Shown one piece after another: positions 15-11,228 of a stretch of 37,612 nt of DNA. Within the stretch, counting starts at the first letter, position 1; the number at the start of each line of letters is the position of its first letter. Origin of the DNA: a virus; the IMG/VR virus record IMGVR_UViG_3300027747_001864, positions 1 through 37,612 of that record. The stretch is one strand, 5' to 3'. A program made the translations under genes and the position numbers. Under the pieces are notes generated by a model that had not been told where the DNA came from, made no database searches, and saw nothing but the letters and a program-made list of their open reading frames with translations.

Positions 15-473
15 TTATTTTTGAGTTGGTAGGTCTAAGACTTCTTCGTATTCTTTGTAAGAAATTTCTATCCATCCAATCGGAAAGTCAACCCATCTTT
101 TTGAAAGTTCATAATGGGCTAGTTGCTTGTCTTCTGAAAGTAAACCATCTTCTAGGGCCTTTGTCAAATTATTCAAATCGGGAGTGGATTGGTGGAATCG
201 GCCATGGTGTAATTTTTTTTTCTTATTTGACCATGAGGGTGGCACCGGAATAAAGAAAGTTATGGAGGCACCAACCGGAGGCATGACAAAGTTTTTTCTT
301 TTGGCCTCGGCCGATAAGTCTATTTTGTATTGATTGTATCTTTCTAGTCTAAGTAATCTTTTTAGTCCAGGTGGTCTTAGTCTTTCTCTTGGGATTCTAA
401 AAAATATCCGATCGCCTTGTGTTGCCCTTACATGGGTTTGAGGTGTTATGTTAAGAATTACTTTTTTGTGCAT
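15..473 (-). CDS. rusA: RusA-family Holliday junction resolvase
   Basis: This 152-residue protein matches the RusA endonuclease family, which cuts Holliday junctions during phage recombination and before packaging. The diagnostic C-terminal block is visible at about residues 94-112: TPDLNNLTKALEDGL followed by SEDKQL. It supplies the conserved acidic residues of the P-D-x-D/N-N-L-x-K and D-G-L-x-x-D motifs. The family's first Asp is kept as PDLNNL rather than PDIDNL, so one acidic position is Asn here. A conserved IPVPPSW segment precedes it. It is the last gene of the leftmost minus-strand unit, and its start overlaps the end of the small ribbon-helix-helix gene by 23 bases, which suggests translational coupling. 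With the YqaJ-like exonuclease and NinG it forms the recombination set of the phage. Confidence 0.85.
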   Translation of the reverse strand: MHKKVILNITPQTHVRATQGDRIFFRIPRERLRPPGLKRLLRLERYNQYKIDLSAEAKRKNFVMPPVGASITFFIPVPPSWSNKKKKLHHGRFHQSTPDLNNLTKALEDGLLSEDKQLAHYELSKRWVDFPIGWIEISYKEYEEVLDLPTQK

Positions 474-2393: not shown

Positions 2394-2473
2394 AGCTTAT
2401 CAATATTAAAATTTGAATGTGTATCTTGTATTTCTTGTAAAAATTCTCTTGCTTTTACAACTTTGGTTTTCAT
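2390..2473 (-). pseudogene. 27-codon duplicate of the exonuclease C-terminus
   Basis: A short frame encoding [20 protein letters not shown] plus FNIDKL repeats the last part of the exonuclease encoded at 4433-5188, where the same words end in KFNNNTIL. Its ATG overlaps the TGA of groL and its TGA overlaps the ATG of the methyltransferase, so it is translationally linked on both sides. It looks like the original 3' end of the exonuclease gene, cut off by insertion of the groS-groL cassette. Whether the peptide is made or matters is unknown. Confidence 0.8.
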
Positions 2474-2474
2474 T
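2421..2474. repeat. Direct repeat, left copy, flanking the groS-groL cassette
   Basis: A 54-bp segment that matches 4467-4520 at 53 of 54 positions (single difference at 2465). Weaker similarity continues leftward to about 2404. It overlaps the last codon of groL and the 27-codon remnant. Confidence 0.95.
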
Positions 2475-4071
2475 CACCTTGTGGTGCAGCTGGAGCTGGT
2501 TTGTCAGCAATCACACACTCTGTTGTTAACAACATAGAAGCGATAGAAGCTGCATTCTCTAAAGCAACTCTTGTTACTTTAGTAGGATCGATAACACCTG
2601 CTTTGAATAAGTTTTCGAAAACTTCTGTTCTTGCATTGAAACCAAAGTCGTCTTTACCTTCTTTGATTCTTTGAACAACAATAGAGCCTTCGATACCGCT
2701 ATTCTTCACAATTTGACGAAGTGGTTCTTCAATTGCACGACGTACAATTTGAATACCAGTTGTTTCGTCTTCGTTAGCACCTTTTAATTTATCTAAACTT
2801 GCTACTGCACGAATGTAAGCAACCCCACCACCCGGTACGATTCCTTCTTCAACAGCTGCACGCGTTGCGTGTAAAGCATCGTCAACACGATCCTTCTTTT
2901 CTTTCATTTCAGTTTCAGTAGCTGCACCAACATACAATACGGCAACACCACCACTTAGCTTCGCTAAACGCTCTTGTAATTTCTCACGATCGTAGTCAGA
3001 AGTTGTATTTTCAATTTGCGCTTTAATTTGATTTACACGCGCAGTGATGTCTGCTTTTTTACCTTTACCACCTACGATAACGGTATTGTCTTTATCTATT
3101 GTTACAGAACTTGCTTGACCTAAATAAGTTAAATCGGCGTTCTCTAATTTGAAACCTTGTTCTTCAGAGATAACAGTTCCTGCAGTTAAAATTGCAAGGT
3201 CTGTTAACATTTCTTTTCTTCTATCACCAAAGCCTGGTGCTTTCACAGCAGCTACTTTAATAGTACCACGTAATTTGTTTACGACTAAGGTTGCCATTGC
3301 TTCACCTTCTAAGTCTTCAGCAATAATAACTAATGGACGGCTTGTTTGAGCTACTTTCTCTAAAATATGCAAGATGTCTTTCATTGCTGAAATTTTCTTA
3401 TCATAAATTAAGATATAAGGATTTTGCATTTCAGCTTCCATCTTTTCGCTGTTTGTAACGAAGTAAGGAGAAACGTATCCACGATCAAATTGCATCCCTT
3501 CTACTACATCTACTGTCGTATCTGTACCTTTTGCTTCTTCTACAGTGATCACACCTTCTTTGCCTACTTTGCTCATGGCAAGGGCAATTAATTTTCCAAT
3601 TTCATTGTCATTGTTCGCAGAGATAGAAGCCACTTGCTCAATCTTTTTAGAGTCGTTTCCAACTGTTTGAGACTGTGCTTTTAAACTTGCTACCACTTTT
3701 TCAACCGCTTTATCGATACCACGCTTCAAATCCATTGGATTGGCTCCAGCAGTCACGTTTCTTAAACCTTCGCTAATGATAGCTTGTGCTAAAACAGTAG
3801 CAGTTGTAGTTCCATCACCTGCTTGATCAGCGGTTTTGCTTGCTACTTCTTTTACCATTTGCGCACCAATATTTTCGATAGGATCTTCTAAGTCAATTTC
3901 TTTTGCTACAGAAACACCATCCTTAGTAATAGAAGGTGATCCGAATTTCTTTTCAATAACAACGTTACGACCTTTTGGTCCTAAGGTTACTTTTACGGCG
4001 TTGGCTAAAGTGTCAACCCCTTTTTTCATTTTATTTCTCGCTTCTAAGTCGAAAAAAATCATTTTAGACAT
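2470..4071 (-). CDS. groL: GroEL chaperonin (Bacteroidota type, lacking the GGM tail)
   Basis: A full-length 60-kDa chaperonin subunit of 533 residues that should assemble into the double-ring folding machine with the GroES encoded just upstream. It shows [10 protein letters not shown] (28-37), the ATPase loop GDGTTTATV (85-93), [10 protein letters not shown]-like helix ([13 protein letters not shown]), apical-domain and intermediate-domain signatures ([16 protein letters not shown] with the catalytic Asp, then PGGG) and [11 protein letters not shown] near the end. It ends APAAPQGE without the usual C-terminal Gly-Gly-Met repeats; the stop codon falls exactly where the 54-bp repeat begins, so the tail was probably lost at the recombination junction. 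Base composition is visibly less A+T-rich than the late genes. Close resemblance to bacterial housekeeping GroEL suggests capture from a host. Confidence 0.98.
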
Positions 4072-4119
4072 ATAAACTTATTTTATTTCGTTAATTAATA
4101 GTTCTAGTTACTTTAACAA

Positions 4120-4401
4120 TTATACAATTGCTAAAATATCGCTTTCGCGCATGATCAATAAATCTTGACCATCAATTTGAATTTCTGTTCCAGCGTATTT
4201 ACCGTATAAAACGTTATCGCCTACTTTTACAGTTACGGGTTCGTCTTTTTTACCTGTTCCAGCAGCAAGTACTAGTCCACGTTGTGGTTTTTCTTTTGCA
4301 GTATCAGGGATGATGATTCCTCCAGCTGTTTTTTCTTCTGCAGCGGCAGGCTTAATTATTACTCTGTCGTGTAGAGGAGTAATGTTTAATTTCTTAGCCA
4401 T
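4120..4401 (-). CDS. groS: GroES co-chaperonin
   Basis: A 93-residue Cpn10 subunit, the lid of the GroEL chamber. It begins [12 protein letters not shown], has the mobile loop [19 protein letters not shown] that docks on GroEL, then [28 protein letters not shown] and the C-terminal [13 protein letters not shown]. All hallmarks of a functional bacterial GroES are present and length is normal. It lies 48 bases upstream of groL, the standard groSL order. No CIRCE-like inverted repeat is seen in the short stretch before it, so it probably depends on the phage early promoter. This gene lies inside the segment flanked by 54-bp repeats and is much more host-like than the second GroES-like gene at 14798. 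Confidence 0.98.
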
Positions 4402-5597: not shown

Positions 5598-5807
5598 TTA
5601 CTTGATTCTGGTTACCAAAGTTTTATTGGTAGTTTCGTTTTTTATGTGTTCTATTTTGAATTTTTTATCCTTGTTTTCAGGATTATTTTTCAAAAGAGAA
5701 ACCATTACCGCAATTGAGGCTTTGGCATAAACAAACTCAACGCTTTCGTTTACCTTAAGCAACGATACTTTGCTAGAAACCGAATCTTCTTCTTTTTTTC
5801 TTGCCAT
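5598..5807 (-). CDS. First early-operon protein, 69 aa, unknown function
   Basis: A basic 69-residue protein (MARKKEEDSV..., ending NKTLVTRIK) and the first gene of the leftward early operon; its start lies about 40 bases past the promoter at 5852-5884. Short alternating hydrophobic strands (SLLKVNESVEFVY, KKFKIEHIKNE, TLVTRI) suggest a small beta-rich fold as in DNA- or RNA-binding domains. No family is recognised. Being first in the operon it may be the most strongly expressed early product. Confidence 0.6.
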   Translation of the reverse strand: MARKKEEDSVSSKVSLLKVNESVEFVYAKASIAVMVSLLKNNPENKDKKFKIEHIKNETTNKTLVTRIK

Positions 5808-5851
5808 TTTGTTGTGTTTTTTGTGTTAGTAATTGTTTGTCTTGTATAAAA

Positions 5852-5884
5852 CAAAACTAAACTAATTAATTTAATTAACAAAAC
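5852..5884 (-). promoter_or_regulatory. Predicted leftward early promoter
   Basis: On the minus strand GTTTTG (5884-5879) is followed after 19 bases by TAGTTTTG (5859-5852), an exact fit to the Bacteroidota promoter TTG-N19-TAnnTTTG. It would start transcription near 5845, leaving a 5' leader of about 38 bases before the gene at 5807, and drives the operon that runs to the terminator at 651-680. Confidence 0.75.
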
Positions 5885-5957
5885 TTTGCCTAATATTTTT
5901 TTAATTAATTTTTTCCATATATCTTCGTTTCAGATTTTTTCATAGATTTTAGATTTT

Positions 5958-5989
5958 ACCCCTGCTGTATTCTTATAGCGGGGGTTTTT
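5958..5989 (+). terminator. Plus-strand intrinsic terminator with no upstream plus-strand gene
   Basis: ACCCCTGCT (5958-5966) pairs with AGCGGGGGT (5977-5985) as a nine-pair stem with one G-U pair, a ten-base loop and a following T5 run. The reverse strand has no U-run, so the direction is plus. No plus-strand gene precedes it; it may end an antisense or small RNA crossing the early promoter region. Confidence 0.7.
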
Positions 5990-6172
5990 ATGTAAAACAC
6001 AATTCAAAAAGTTTAATTTCTGACACTTGTTTATAAAATATGAGTCAATTATTAATTTTTTAGGCTCATTTGTTAAGTTATAAGTTTACTTTTATCCGAT
6101 TTTTTATCCTTTTGTCAAGTTATTGCTTTACGTAAAAAAAAATCTGTAAAGCCCACAGTTTACTTTATCCCT

Positions 6173-6208
6173 TAAAAGTAACATAACAATATCTATATGT
6201 TACTTTTA
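6173..6208. repeat. Perfect 13-bp inverted repeat containing GTAACA boxes
   Basis: TAAAAGTAACATA (6173-6185) is matched by its exact reverse complement at 6196-6208, with a 10-bp spacer. Each arm contains the GTAACA hexamer that recurs through the region, so it is probably a dimeric operator rather than an RNA hairpin (no adjacent U-run). Confidence 0.8.
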
Positions 6209-6272
6209 TTTACCACTATTGCTTTTTTTGTGGTTAATTTTTACAATTTTTTAATCTTCAAGGTATTTTGAT

Positions 6273-6325
6273 GTTCACTAATTAACTTCTTTCACTGCCC
6301 GTGAACAGTTTAAAAATGTGAACAT
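6273..6325. repeat. Three GTGAACA boxes
   Basis: TGTTCAC at 6273-6279 and GTGAACA at 6301-6307 and 6319-6325, the last two 18 bp apart. A short operator-like motif distinct from, but similar in style to, the GTAACA boxes. Confidence 0.5.
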
Positions 6326-6359
6326 TTGCGTAGTATTACTACCAATAATTAACAAATTA

Positions 6360-6462
6360 TGTTACAAATCCATATATATCAGTAACATATCTAGCCTAAT
6401 TATGTTACAACATTTTACATATTGTACCATAACTATTTAACAAATGTTACCAATTTGGTTAC
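6360..6462. repeat. Cluster of TGTTAC/GTAACA hexamers
   Basis: TGTTAC at 6360-6365, 6403-6408 and 6445-6450, GTAACA at 6382-6387, and GTTAC at 6458-6462. Successive starts are 22, 21 and 42 bp apart, close to whole numbers of double helical turns, so bound proteins would lie on one face of the DNA. Confidence 0.65.
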
Positions 6463-6631
6463 AAAAGTTCGCTTTTTTAAGAACTTTAAAAATCAACACT
6501 ACCAACACTTTAATACAAATAAACTACAAAAAACCCTTAACTACATTACATTTTAAAAATTACAAGTCGCCCAAACTCAATAAAAATTTCATAACTCATT
6601 GACAACCATAAAATAAATAAAAAAAAACTAC

Positions 6632-6715
6632 CCCACCTAGACTCCAGGGGGGTTACTCCTCCAAAGTGGGTGGCTAAAACCTTTTGGGGAACGGGCAAAT
6701 TTTGAGGGGACGGGG
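6632..6715 (+). other. Hairpin and G-quadruplex-prone segment at the strand-composition switch
   Basis: CCCAC (6632-6636) can pair with GTGGG (6666-6670); inside, GGGGGG (6647-6652) can pair with CTCCTC (6656-6661) around a TTA loop. Just downstream, four G runs (6686-6689, 6693-6695, 6706-6709, 6712-6715) with loops of 3, 10 and 2 fit a quadruplex pattern. Confidence 0.4.
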
Positions 6716-6938
6716 TTCGGTTTTTGGTTTTGGGATTTGTTTTATACCTGTGTGTTTTGGTGGTTTTATGGGCTTGGGTATTCAGGCAAAGTGGTTGGTA
6801 GTATTGGGTTTTGTGGTTTCATGCACTGGGCGTTGGATCATTGGGTAATTGGTTTATAGTATTGGGGAAATAGGGTTATTGGGTAGGGTTACCGCTTATC
6901 AGTTCTATTTGCCGTTGGTAATATATATGAAGGATTTA

Positions 6939-6970
6939 TTTGGAAGTTCCGTAACAATTGGGTATGTTTG
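6939..6970 (+). promoter_or_regulatory. Predicted rightward early promoter
   Basis: TTTG (6939-6942) is followed after 20 bases by TATGTTTG (6963-6970), an exact match to TAnnTTTG. Transcription would begin around 6975-6978, about 25 bases before the ATG at 7001. Three GTAACAA boxes overlap it, so it is probably repressed or activated by the protein that reads them. Confidence 0.7.
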
Positions 6971-6999
6971 CGTAACAAGAATCAAAAGTTCCGTAACAA
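6949..6999 (+). promoter_or_regulatory. Operator array: three (C/G)CGTAACAA boxes at 21-bp pitch
   Basis: CCGTAACAA at 6949-6957, GCGTAACAA at 6970-6978 and CCGTAACAA at 6991-6999 are exactly 21 bp apart; the outer two share AAGTTCCGTAACAA. One lies between the promoter elements, one at the transcription start and one before the start codon, which is the placement expected of repressor operators. Confidence 0.7.
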
Positions 7000-7000
7000 A

Positions 7001-7303
7001 ATGAAATTAAAAACAAAATGTTGCATTTATTGCAATAAAGAAATGGAAAGCAAAACTATTAGAAAAAGTTTTTGTTCTGATAAGTGTAGAGTTTATTGGA
7101 ATAGGAAAAACCCAAATGGTAATGTTATATCTCCATTAGAATTGGAAACAAAGCTAAAATTAGCCCCAAAATTGGCAGATAAGCCAAAAATGGTAGAAAT
7201 ACCCATTAAAACAAAAAAAGAGGTTGAAAACGACCCAAAAGAGGGTACAATGCGATTTATGATGAAATATGATGTGTTAACTTATGCAGAACTTAAAAAA
7301 TAA
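7001..7303 (+). CDS. Small zinc-finger-like protein, 100 aa
   Basis: First gene of the rightward early operon. The N-terminus has paired cysteines CIYC (about residues 8-11) and FCSDKC (about 24-29) followed by RVYWNRK, a C-x2-C...C-x3-C arrangement that would bind one zinc ion as in many small phage and transposon-type zinc ribbons. The remaining 65 residues are basic and probably disordered, ending with a short helix (VLTYAELKK). I chose ATG at 7001 because an in-frame TTG at 6968 would put the start inside the promoter and operator boxes. A nucleic-acid-binding or host-takeover role is likely by position, but unproven. Confidence 0.7.
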   Translation: MKLKTKCCIYCNKEMESKTIRKSFCSDKCRVYWNRKNPNGNVISPLELETKLKLAPKLADKPKMVEIPIKTKKEVENDPKEGTMRFMMKYDVLTYAELKK

Positions 7304-7798: not shown

Positions 7799-8113
7799 AT
7801 GAACAAACAATTAACACCAAAAGAAAATGCTAATAAATTAACCTATAAAAGTTCAGATGGTTTTAGTTCTGAACGAACTTACGACGAAAATGGTAATCAA
7901 TTAACCTATAAAGATTCAAATGGGTATAGTTTTGAATACAGTCGTGATGAAAATGGTAATGCATTAACTTATAAAAATTCAAGGGGGCATTATGAAATTA
8001 AAGGAAAATCAGTAACCCAAAAAGAATACGAATCCTTCATCAATGGTACACCAGAATACACAATGGAAGAATTAGTAGAAAAACTAGGACATAATTTTAA
8101 AATTAAAAAATAA
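7799..8113 (+). CDS. YD-repeat-like protein with two 21-residue repeats, 104 aa
   Basis: A short version of the protein encoded next. Residues 19-60 are two tandem 21-residue units of the form S-[DN]-G-[FY]-S-[SF]-E-[RY]-x-[YR]-D-E-N-G-N-x-L-T-Y-K-x (nucleotides 7853-7978). They resemble YD/RHS-type repeats in their Y-D-x-x-G-N core but are too few to form an RHS cage. The C-terminal 44 residues (EYESFINGTPEYTMEELVEK, then GHNFKIKK) are nearly identical to those of the neighbouring paralogue. Function is unknown; proteins with such repeats occur in accessory regions of phages and bacteria. Confidence 0.75.
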   Translation: MNKQLTPKENANKLTYKSSDGFSSERTYDENGNQLTYKDSNGYSFEYSRDENGNALTYKNSRGHYEIKGKSVTQKEYESFINGTPEYTMEELVEKLGHNFKIKK

Positions 8114-8116
8114 CCA

Positions 8117-8707
8117 ATGAAAAACATTCAAGGAACAACAAAGGATTTAGAACTATTTAACAATGGTAAAAAGATGTATGAGTTTAAAACAAAATCATAT
8201 GGGTATAGTTCTGAACGAACTTACGATGAAAAAGGTAATGAATTAACCTATAAAAATTCAAATGGCTTTAGTTCTGAACGAACTTACGATAAAAAAGGTA
8301 ATGAATTAACCTTTAAAAATTCAAATGGGGTTAGTTTTGAATACACTCGTGATGAAAATGGTAATGAATTAACCTATAAAAATTCAAATAGGTATAGTTC
8401 TGAATACACTTATGATGAAAAGGGTAATGTATTAACTTTTAAAGATTCAAATGGGTATAGTTATGAATGCACTTACGATGAAAATGGTAATGCATTAACC
8501 TATAAAAATTCAGATGGGGATAGTTTTGAATACACTCGTGATGAAAATGGTAATCAATTAACTTATAAAAATTCAAATGGTGATTATAGAATCAAAGACA
8601 AATCAGCAACGAAAGAAGAATACGAATCTTTTATCAATAGTACACCAGAATACACAATGGAAGAATTAGTAAAAAAAATAGGACACAATTTTAAAATTAA
8701 AAAATAA
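8117..8707 (+). CDS. YD-repeat-like protein with six 21-residue repeats, 196 aa
   Basis: The larger paralogue of the protein at 7799. Residues 27-152 are six tandem 21-residue units (nucleotides 8195-8572, period 63 bp) with a conserved D-E-x-G-N-x-L-T-[YF]-K core. A distinct N-terminus (MKNIQGTTKDLELFNNGKKM) precedes them, and a C-terminal 44-residue domain with EYTMEELVKKIGHNFKIKK is shared with the neighbour. Two versus six units in adjacent paralogues indicates gain or loss by recombination between repeats. A beta-rich ligand-binding or toxin/immunity-like role can be imagined, but nothing shows it directly. Confidence 0.75.
   Translation: MKNIQGTTKDLELFNNGKKMYEFKTKSYGYSSERTYDEKGNELTYKNSNGFSSERTYDKKGNELTFKNSNGVSFEYTRDENGNELTYKNSNRYSSEYTYDEKGNVLTFKDSNGYSYECTYDENGNALTYKNSDGDSFEYTRDENGNQLTYKNSNGDYRIKDKSATKEEYESFINSTPEYTMEELVKKIGHNFKIKK
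8195..8572 (+). repeat. Six tandem 63-bp coding repeats
   Basis: Six diverged 63-bp units encode the 21-residue repeats. Related units occur at 7853-7978 in the preceding gene, giving material for unequal recombination. Confidence 0.85.
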
Positions 8708-11012: not shown

Positions 11013-11228
11013 ATGGATAACAAACAAAAAAATGATTTAAGAGATGCTATTTTACTGCATCTCGAGCAAATTGAAAGGCCAATGTCTTGGCTTTCTAATA
11101 AAGCCGATATTCCGTATCCGACAATTTATGCTTTATTAAAACAACGGACTTTTGCTATATCTGATAAAAATTTAGCAAAAATAAACAAAGCATTAGACAC
11201 TCATTTTATTAACAATCAAAACTTTTAA
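11013..11228 (+). CDS. Cro/XRE-type helix-turn-helix regulator, 71 aa
   Basis: A 71-residue protein with one helix-turn-helix domain: MSWLSNKADIPYPTIYALLK (about residues 24-43) contains helices 2 and 3, and SDKNLAKINKALDTHF gives the following helix pair, the XRE/Cro pattern. At this size it is a stand-alone regulator, probably controlling the switch between the divergent NinG operon and the replication operon, since it lies first after the divergent intergenic space, or the GTAACA boxes near 6.2-7.0 kb. Its stop is one base before the replication protein's start. An imperfect promoter element TACTTTG lies at 10986-10992 without a good -33 partner. Confidence 0.8.
   Translation: MDNKQKNDLRDAILLHLEQIERPMSWLSNKADIPYPTIYALLKQRTFAISDKNLAKINKALDTHFINNQNF

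Follow-up and report, generated by a model that had tools for sequence, protein, structure and literature searches.

A zinc-finger gene and the CGTAAC boxes over its promoter: a putative autoregulatory, exchangeable cassette in uncultivated phages

Introduction

In the immunity region of lambdoid phages (Cro/cI), a regulator and its cognate operators are exchanged as one module among otherwise similar phages. Autoregulation by a zinc-finger protein is also known: I-TevI, a GIY-YIG endonuclease of phage T4 that carries a zinc finger, is a proven transcriptional autorepressor (PMC2988022). Early control in phages of Bacteroidota is little known, and phage repressors made of a lone zinc finger are unusual.

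Here we describe a locus that shares features with both systems. It lies in the viral record IMGVR_UViG_3300027747_001864, the whole of which (positions 1 to 37,612; 37,612 nucleotides) we refer to as the window. The nearest named phages, judged by terminase (29.5% identity) and primase, are the Flavobacterium elemo podoviruses and other Flavobacterium/Cellulophaga phages. A first-pass annotation had pointed to three regularly spaced boxes over the rightward promoter. In our view, the boxes probably serve as operator in a negative autoregulatory loop run by the small zinc-finger protein encoded immediately downstream.

Results

Three boxes overlap a promoter of the Bacteroidota type

The hexamer CGTAAC occurs on the plus strand at 6950, 6971 and 6992, and the longer GTAACAA at 6951, 6972 and 6993, so that with either motif the pitch is exactly 21/21 bp. 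The first-pass annotation had this pitch right, although its box starts (6949, 6970 and 6991) were 1-2 nt early. It had also noticed that the outer boxes share a longer sequence, and exact copies of AAGTTCCGTAACAA are indeed present at 6944-6957 and 6986-6999. The boxes lie around a plus-strand promoter string consisting of a -33 element TTTG (6939-6942), 20 nucleotides of spacer and the -7 element TATGTTTG (6963-6970). This agrees with the Bacteroidota sigma-A promoter, in which TTTG stands about 19-20 bp 5' of TAnnTTTG (PMC6847099, PMC9723704), and the -7 element is the sole TAnnTTTG on the plus strand within 5801-7010. The promoter had been called an exact match to consensus. This is correct for the older TAnnTTTG, but not for TAHHTTTG, to which the -7 consensus was refined in F. 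johnsoniae and in which G at -10 and -9 is almost never seen (PMC6847099): the window has G at -9.

Because the flavobacterial -7 element spans -12 to -5 (PMC6847099), transcription is predicted to start near 6975, which gives positions of -25, -4 and +18 for the three boxes and of +27 for the start codon (7001) of the downstream gene. The predicted leader is similar to the median of 24 bp in F. psychrophilum (PMC9723704). Box 1 (6950-6955, about -25 to -20) thus lies inside the -33/-7 spacer, box 2 (6971-6976) abuts the -7 element and covers the predicted start (-4 to +2), and box 3 (6992-6997) ends 3 bp 5' of the ATG. Specific sites therefore overlap the promoter core and the predicted start site, which supports the operator-like character originally proposed for them.

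How unusual such an arrangement is by chance depends on the feature counted. GTAACAA alone shows no enrichment across the window (8 observed, 7.7 expected), and TTTG-N17-21-TAnnTTTG as such occurs 7 times against 3.4 by chance, while CGTAAC exceeds expectation (17 occurrences, where dinucleotide shuffles give 5.9 and an order-4 model about 9.4). A 7-mer repeated three times at one equal pitch (any non-simple 7-mer with at least two G/C, pitch 8-40 bp) was found in 1.3% of 300 copies of the whole window generated under an order-3 Markov model. We judge the array to be real because it is conserved in relatives, which settles the question beyond these figures.

Arrays are kept in uncultivated relatives, with variable pitch

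A primase search yielded 80 viral loci, and the set was enlarged by searches with alignments of the zinc finger. Loci with a finger gene carry CGTAAC arrays immediately 5' of it. Thirty distinct arrays contain 3-7 boxes each, with the extended box AT-CGTAAC-AAA, and in 30/30 the gap between the last box and the ATG is 1-3 bp. The complete string TTTG-N19/20-TAnnTTTG with a box in its spacer is found in five lines, the window among these; the L136/L449-L473 group has it with TACCTTTA. Beyond the window, a spacer box is present in L009, L285/L466, L306, L227/L479 and the L136/L449-L473 group, and the direct junction of TAnnTTTG with CGTAAC recurs in L009, L306, L479, L477 and L475. Pitch is less constant: over the 114 steps of the distinct arrays it is 10 bp in 54, 18-23 bp in 44 and 11-13 bp in 16. 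Conservation in related phages, suggested earlier as a check, thus extends to the array but not to its exact 21-bp pitch. Similarly, the phasing on one DNA face that had been read from the window suits the 21/21 and 10-bp arrays, whereas binding strictly to one face is at odds with the steps of 12-13 and 18-19 bp in relatives. Binding to the boxes may nevertheless be cooperative.

In the zinc-finger phage records searched, close-set arrays are essentially limited to the regulator locus. Arrays without a finger gene that came up in a CGTAAC scan and were inspected (L166, L122, L194 and L084) turned out to be tandem repeats in unrelated sequences. When bacterial contigs were scanned genome-wide for a loosely defined box, no finger gene was found beside the arrays, and neither CGTAAC nor TGTAGCTACA operators were found described in the literature. 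One record of 59908 bases (L470/L490) has two copies of the array mirrored about the contig midpoint; this gives it the look of a whole-contig palindrome and is probably an assembly artefact.

The adjoining gene encodes a small zinc-finger protein

The rightward operon opens with a gene (7001-7303, plus strand) for a protein of 100 aa with an N-terminal four-Cys zinc finger (CIYCNKEMESKTIRKSFCSDKCRVY), our proposed autorepressor. In an AlphaFold2 model of the finger (pLDDT about 80), a helix at residues 27-36 directly follows the second Cys pair, a modelled placement that resembles treble-clef fingers. The finger stays below the Pfam cut-offs of the treble-clef family DUF2116 (14.2 of 26.8 bits) and of zf-FCS (8.4 of 22.4 bits). 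Fold searches with two models, that of the finger (by Foldseek) among them, gave no significant match for either. The window protein has no GIY-YIG catalytic domain, which is present in L009 and L477, and a close relative of the zinc-finger or the RHH-like protein (see below) was not found in a collection of named phages.

The first-pass annotation overlooked this gene, which is likely to encode the regulator, and named two others. One of these, a supposed RHH protein at 451, can be discarded, as the gene there (15-473, minus strand) encodes a RusA resolvase. The other, an XRE protein at 11013, is considered below.

Regulator type and operator type change together

The locus of the finger gene can instead hold a gene for a strand-helix-helix protein (MAKSKPIGVRFD...), located 3' of at least two TGTAGCTACA palindromes. 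We call this protein RHH-like on the basis of its sequence pattern and a weak model. Many RHH-like proteins have the C-terminal motif LKGIDLxIWKSEN in common with the finger proteins. We counted linkage over loci that had been gathered without using the box array. An array of at least three upstream boxes was present at 40 of 44 zinc-finger first genes and a palindrome pair at none, while the 64 loci with only an RHH-like protein all had the TGTAGCTACA palindrome pair (5' of an extra first gene in 20 of them) and never a CGTAAC array. No crossover was seen, but because the rows are related, Fisher values for 40/44 against 0/64 overstate the case. The four remaining finger loci have degenerate arrays (L469 and L476), two boxes (L460) or none (L478).

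Phages whose primases are near-identical can have either a finger or an RHH-like protein at this locus. Regulator type switches at least 4-5 times on a primase tree, with at least 5 changes required on well-supported branches, and operator and regulator types agree in 54/54 rows. Independent switches were concordant in 4/4 cases, a number too small to reach p<0.05 (sign test, p 0.125). The type of site is thus linked to the regulator next door.

The near-identical pair L442 and L052 reveals the extent of an exchange. Their left flanks are 92% identical up to a TGTAGCTACA. There follows a block of about 200 bp, comprising the operator and the N-terminal DNA-binding domain, in which they are unrelated. 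From about codon 48 onwards the two match again, at 94% identity across the following 700 bp, and both proteins end in the same C-terminal tail. Regulator and operator have here been exchanged as one segment. The single TGTAGCTACA kept at the L442 junction is plausibly a relic of the exchange, and eight finger-type loci in all keep one. A third type was found at 161-475 of L062, where an 86-aa HTH-like protein lacking the shared C-terminal tail is preceded by two TGGTACCA sites (at 161 and 192, 31 bp apart). Taken together, finger and boxes are best read, from sequence comparison, as a putative exchangeable specificity cassette. In L043, palindrome operator and RHH-like gene are separated by an inserted gene (180-1028) that by eye is PAPS-reductase-like.

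Variation within the finger type gave further information. In L059 and L070, CGTATC replaces CGTAAC in nearly every box and the finger reads KYCS[AN]KCRLY compared with the usual [KRS]FCS..CR[VI]Y, that is, with the changes F24Y, D27A/N and V31L, of which V31L alone is unique to these two. This covariation probably represents one or two events. L445 and L446 have mostly TGTAAC boxes and a finger with F24Y. Boxes are also kept in GIY-YIG fusions, with the finger N-terminal (L009) or C-terminal (L477, L460 and L475).

Neighbouring features

A distal cluster of six GTAACA/TGTTAC cores extends over 6178-6450 in mixed orientation (6178+, 6198-, 6360-, 6382+, 6403- and 6445-; steps of 20, 162, 22, 21 and 42 bp). 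Six cores within 290 bp occurred in 0/5000 dinucleotide shuffles of the region. No such cluster was seen at the matching place in L072, L070 and L055. From its sequence, it may be a distal operator, a second binding region or another control site. Between the cluster and the promoter lies a G/T-rich tract (6640-6930, plus strand), with counterparts at the same position in L072 (3180-3420), L070 (3740-3920) and L055 (1130-1310). The contigs of many relatives end inside this tract, about 100-350 bp 5' of the gene. Elsewhere, the window encodes its own GroEL and GroES in adjacent genes (2470-4401, minus strand), and its early region encodes short RHS-repeat-like proteins with a 63-bp tandem repeat (7799-8707, plus strand).

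Discussion

Repressor sites are typically found where these boxes lie: within the spacer, across the start site and in the leader. Such positions, next to the gene of the linked DNA-binding protein, point to negative autoregulation. We propose that the gene at 7001-7303, which heads the rightward operon, supplies a small zinc-finger protein that would bind the CGTAAC boxes of the -33/-7 spacer, the start site and the short leader. Its accumulation would block RNA polymerase and turn down the operon, including the regulator gene itself. Finger and boxes would form a swappable unit, whose place in relatives is taken by an RHH-like domain together with TGTAGCTACA palindromes or, in a single case, by an HTH-like protein with TGGTACCA.

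The main rival to this autorepression is an action of the finger protein on its own mRNA, since the distance between box and ATG is fixed. The CGUAAC repeats of the leader, ending next to the AUG, would then be a translational operator. The 1-3 bp gap in all 30 arrays fits this, as does the position of nearly all boxes of the 10-bp arrays 3' of the predicted start, and in another system a translational function has been proposed for TAACTGA repeats just 5' of start codons (PMC4679880). We nonetheless find it unlikely: one or two boxes lie 5' of the predicted start in the window, L009, L306, L479, L466 and the L449-L473 group and so cannot be in the mRNA, boxes are inverted in L477, L460 and L475, the modal pitch of 10 bp is about a helical turn of DNA, and the sites of the alternative RHH-like type are DNA palindromes.

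It is slightly less likely still that the finger protein activates the operon, or both activates and represses it. Some relatives (L072 and L439) are missing a clear -33 element near the -7 element, as an activated promoter might; however, the window and the GIY-YIG-type phages have full -33/-7 elements, and the box positions argue for a repressor.

Very little speaks for replication-origin iterons or host-factor sites whose overlap with the promoter is incidental. The combination of direct repeats with a nearby G/T-rich tract and AT-rich DNA does resemble an origin, and the second GTAACA cluster at 6178-6450 could be taken the same way, but box type switches with the DNA-binding domain of the neighbouring gene in otherwise matching phages, which would be unexpected under a host factor or unchanged replisome genes.

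XRE proteins often control phage early promoters and the phage encodes one (11013-11228, with a weak HTH_26 match), but we reject this least probable candidate because the boxes do not follow the XRE type: CGTAAC arrays are kept in L039, L040 and L051, which have no XRE match (L040 has an unrelated HTH-like gene in its place), the HTH protein there is a different one in phages that have 5-6 CGTAAC boxes, L070 (CGTATC) and L072 (CGTAAC) share IPYPTLYSVFKQKHF, an almost identical XRE recognition region, and the RHH-type phages have the same XRE yet no boxes.

If finger and boxes form an autorepressive cassette, we can tentatively suggest, as a speculation, that the locus is an incompatibility-type switch. 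Zinc-finger, RHH-like and HTH-like domains, mostly on the retained tail and each with its own operators, would divide sister phages into mutually repressing co-infection groups, and new specificities would escape, keeping the cassette diverse. These phages appear not to integrate: Phage_integrase was not found in 14 records, of which none is flagged as at least 90% complete and which may thus be incomplete, so there is no indication of lysogeny.

At this locus, nature provides a series of domain swaps, in which promoter position and C-terminal tail stay the same while DNA-binding domains differ and operators match them. The series opens to test which residues read the box, whether co-infection groups follow specificity, and how the cassette moves. 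Should binding be confirmed, box and finger would make a portable regulator-operator pair for Bacteroidota genetics.

Among known proteins, the small FCS/treble-clef proteins of Bacteroidota chromosomes (about 120 aa, e.g. L639) have a related N-terminal CxxC...FCSxxCR finger, but their C-terminal part is different and no conserved CGTAAC array lies upstream. This family (L629-L673) occurs in 62/296 genomes; as a carrier of similar arrays it was set aside, since AAACG repeats are found upstream in a few close species and not generally. Ribbon-helix-helix autorepressors (CopG/Arc-like) resemble the window's relatives that have an RHH-like protein and palindromic sites at the same locus, whereas the window has a zinc finger and non-palindromic direct repeats. 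With I-TevI the window shares a phage zinc-finger protein, here predicted to bind DNA, whose sites overlap its own promoter, and some relatives of the window have the finger fused to a GIY-YIG domain. Unlike I-TevI, the window protein is without a nuclease domain, its operator is an array of 6-bp boxes, and its gene heads an early-type operon instead of being intron-borne. As in the lambdoid immunity region, regulator and operator are swapped together at loci of the window's type. The differences are that integrase was not found in the 14 records and that the exchange here joins domains of different folds to a C-terminal tail that is itself retained.
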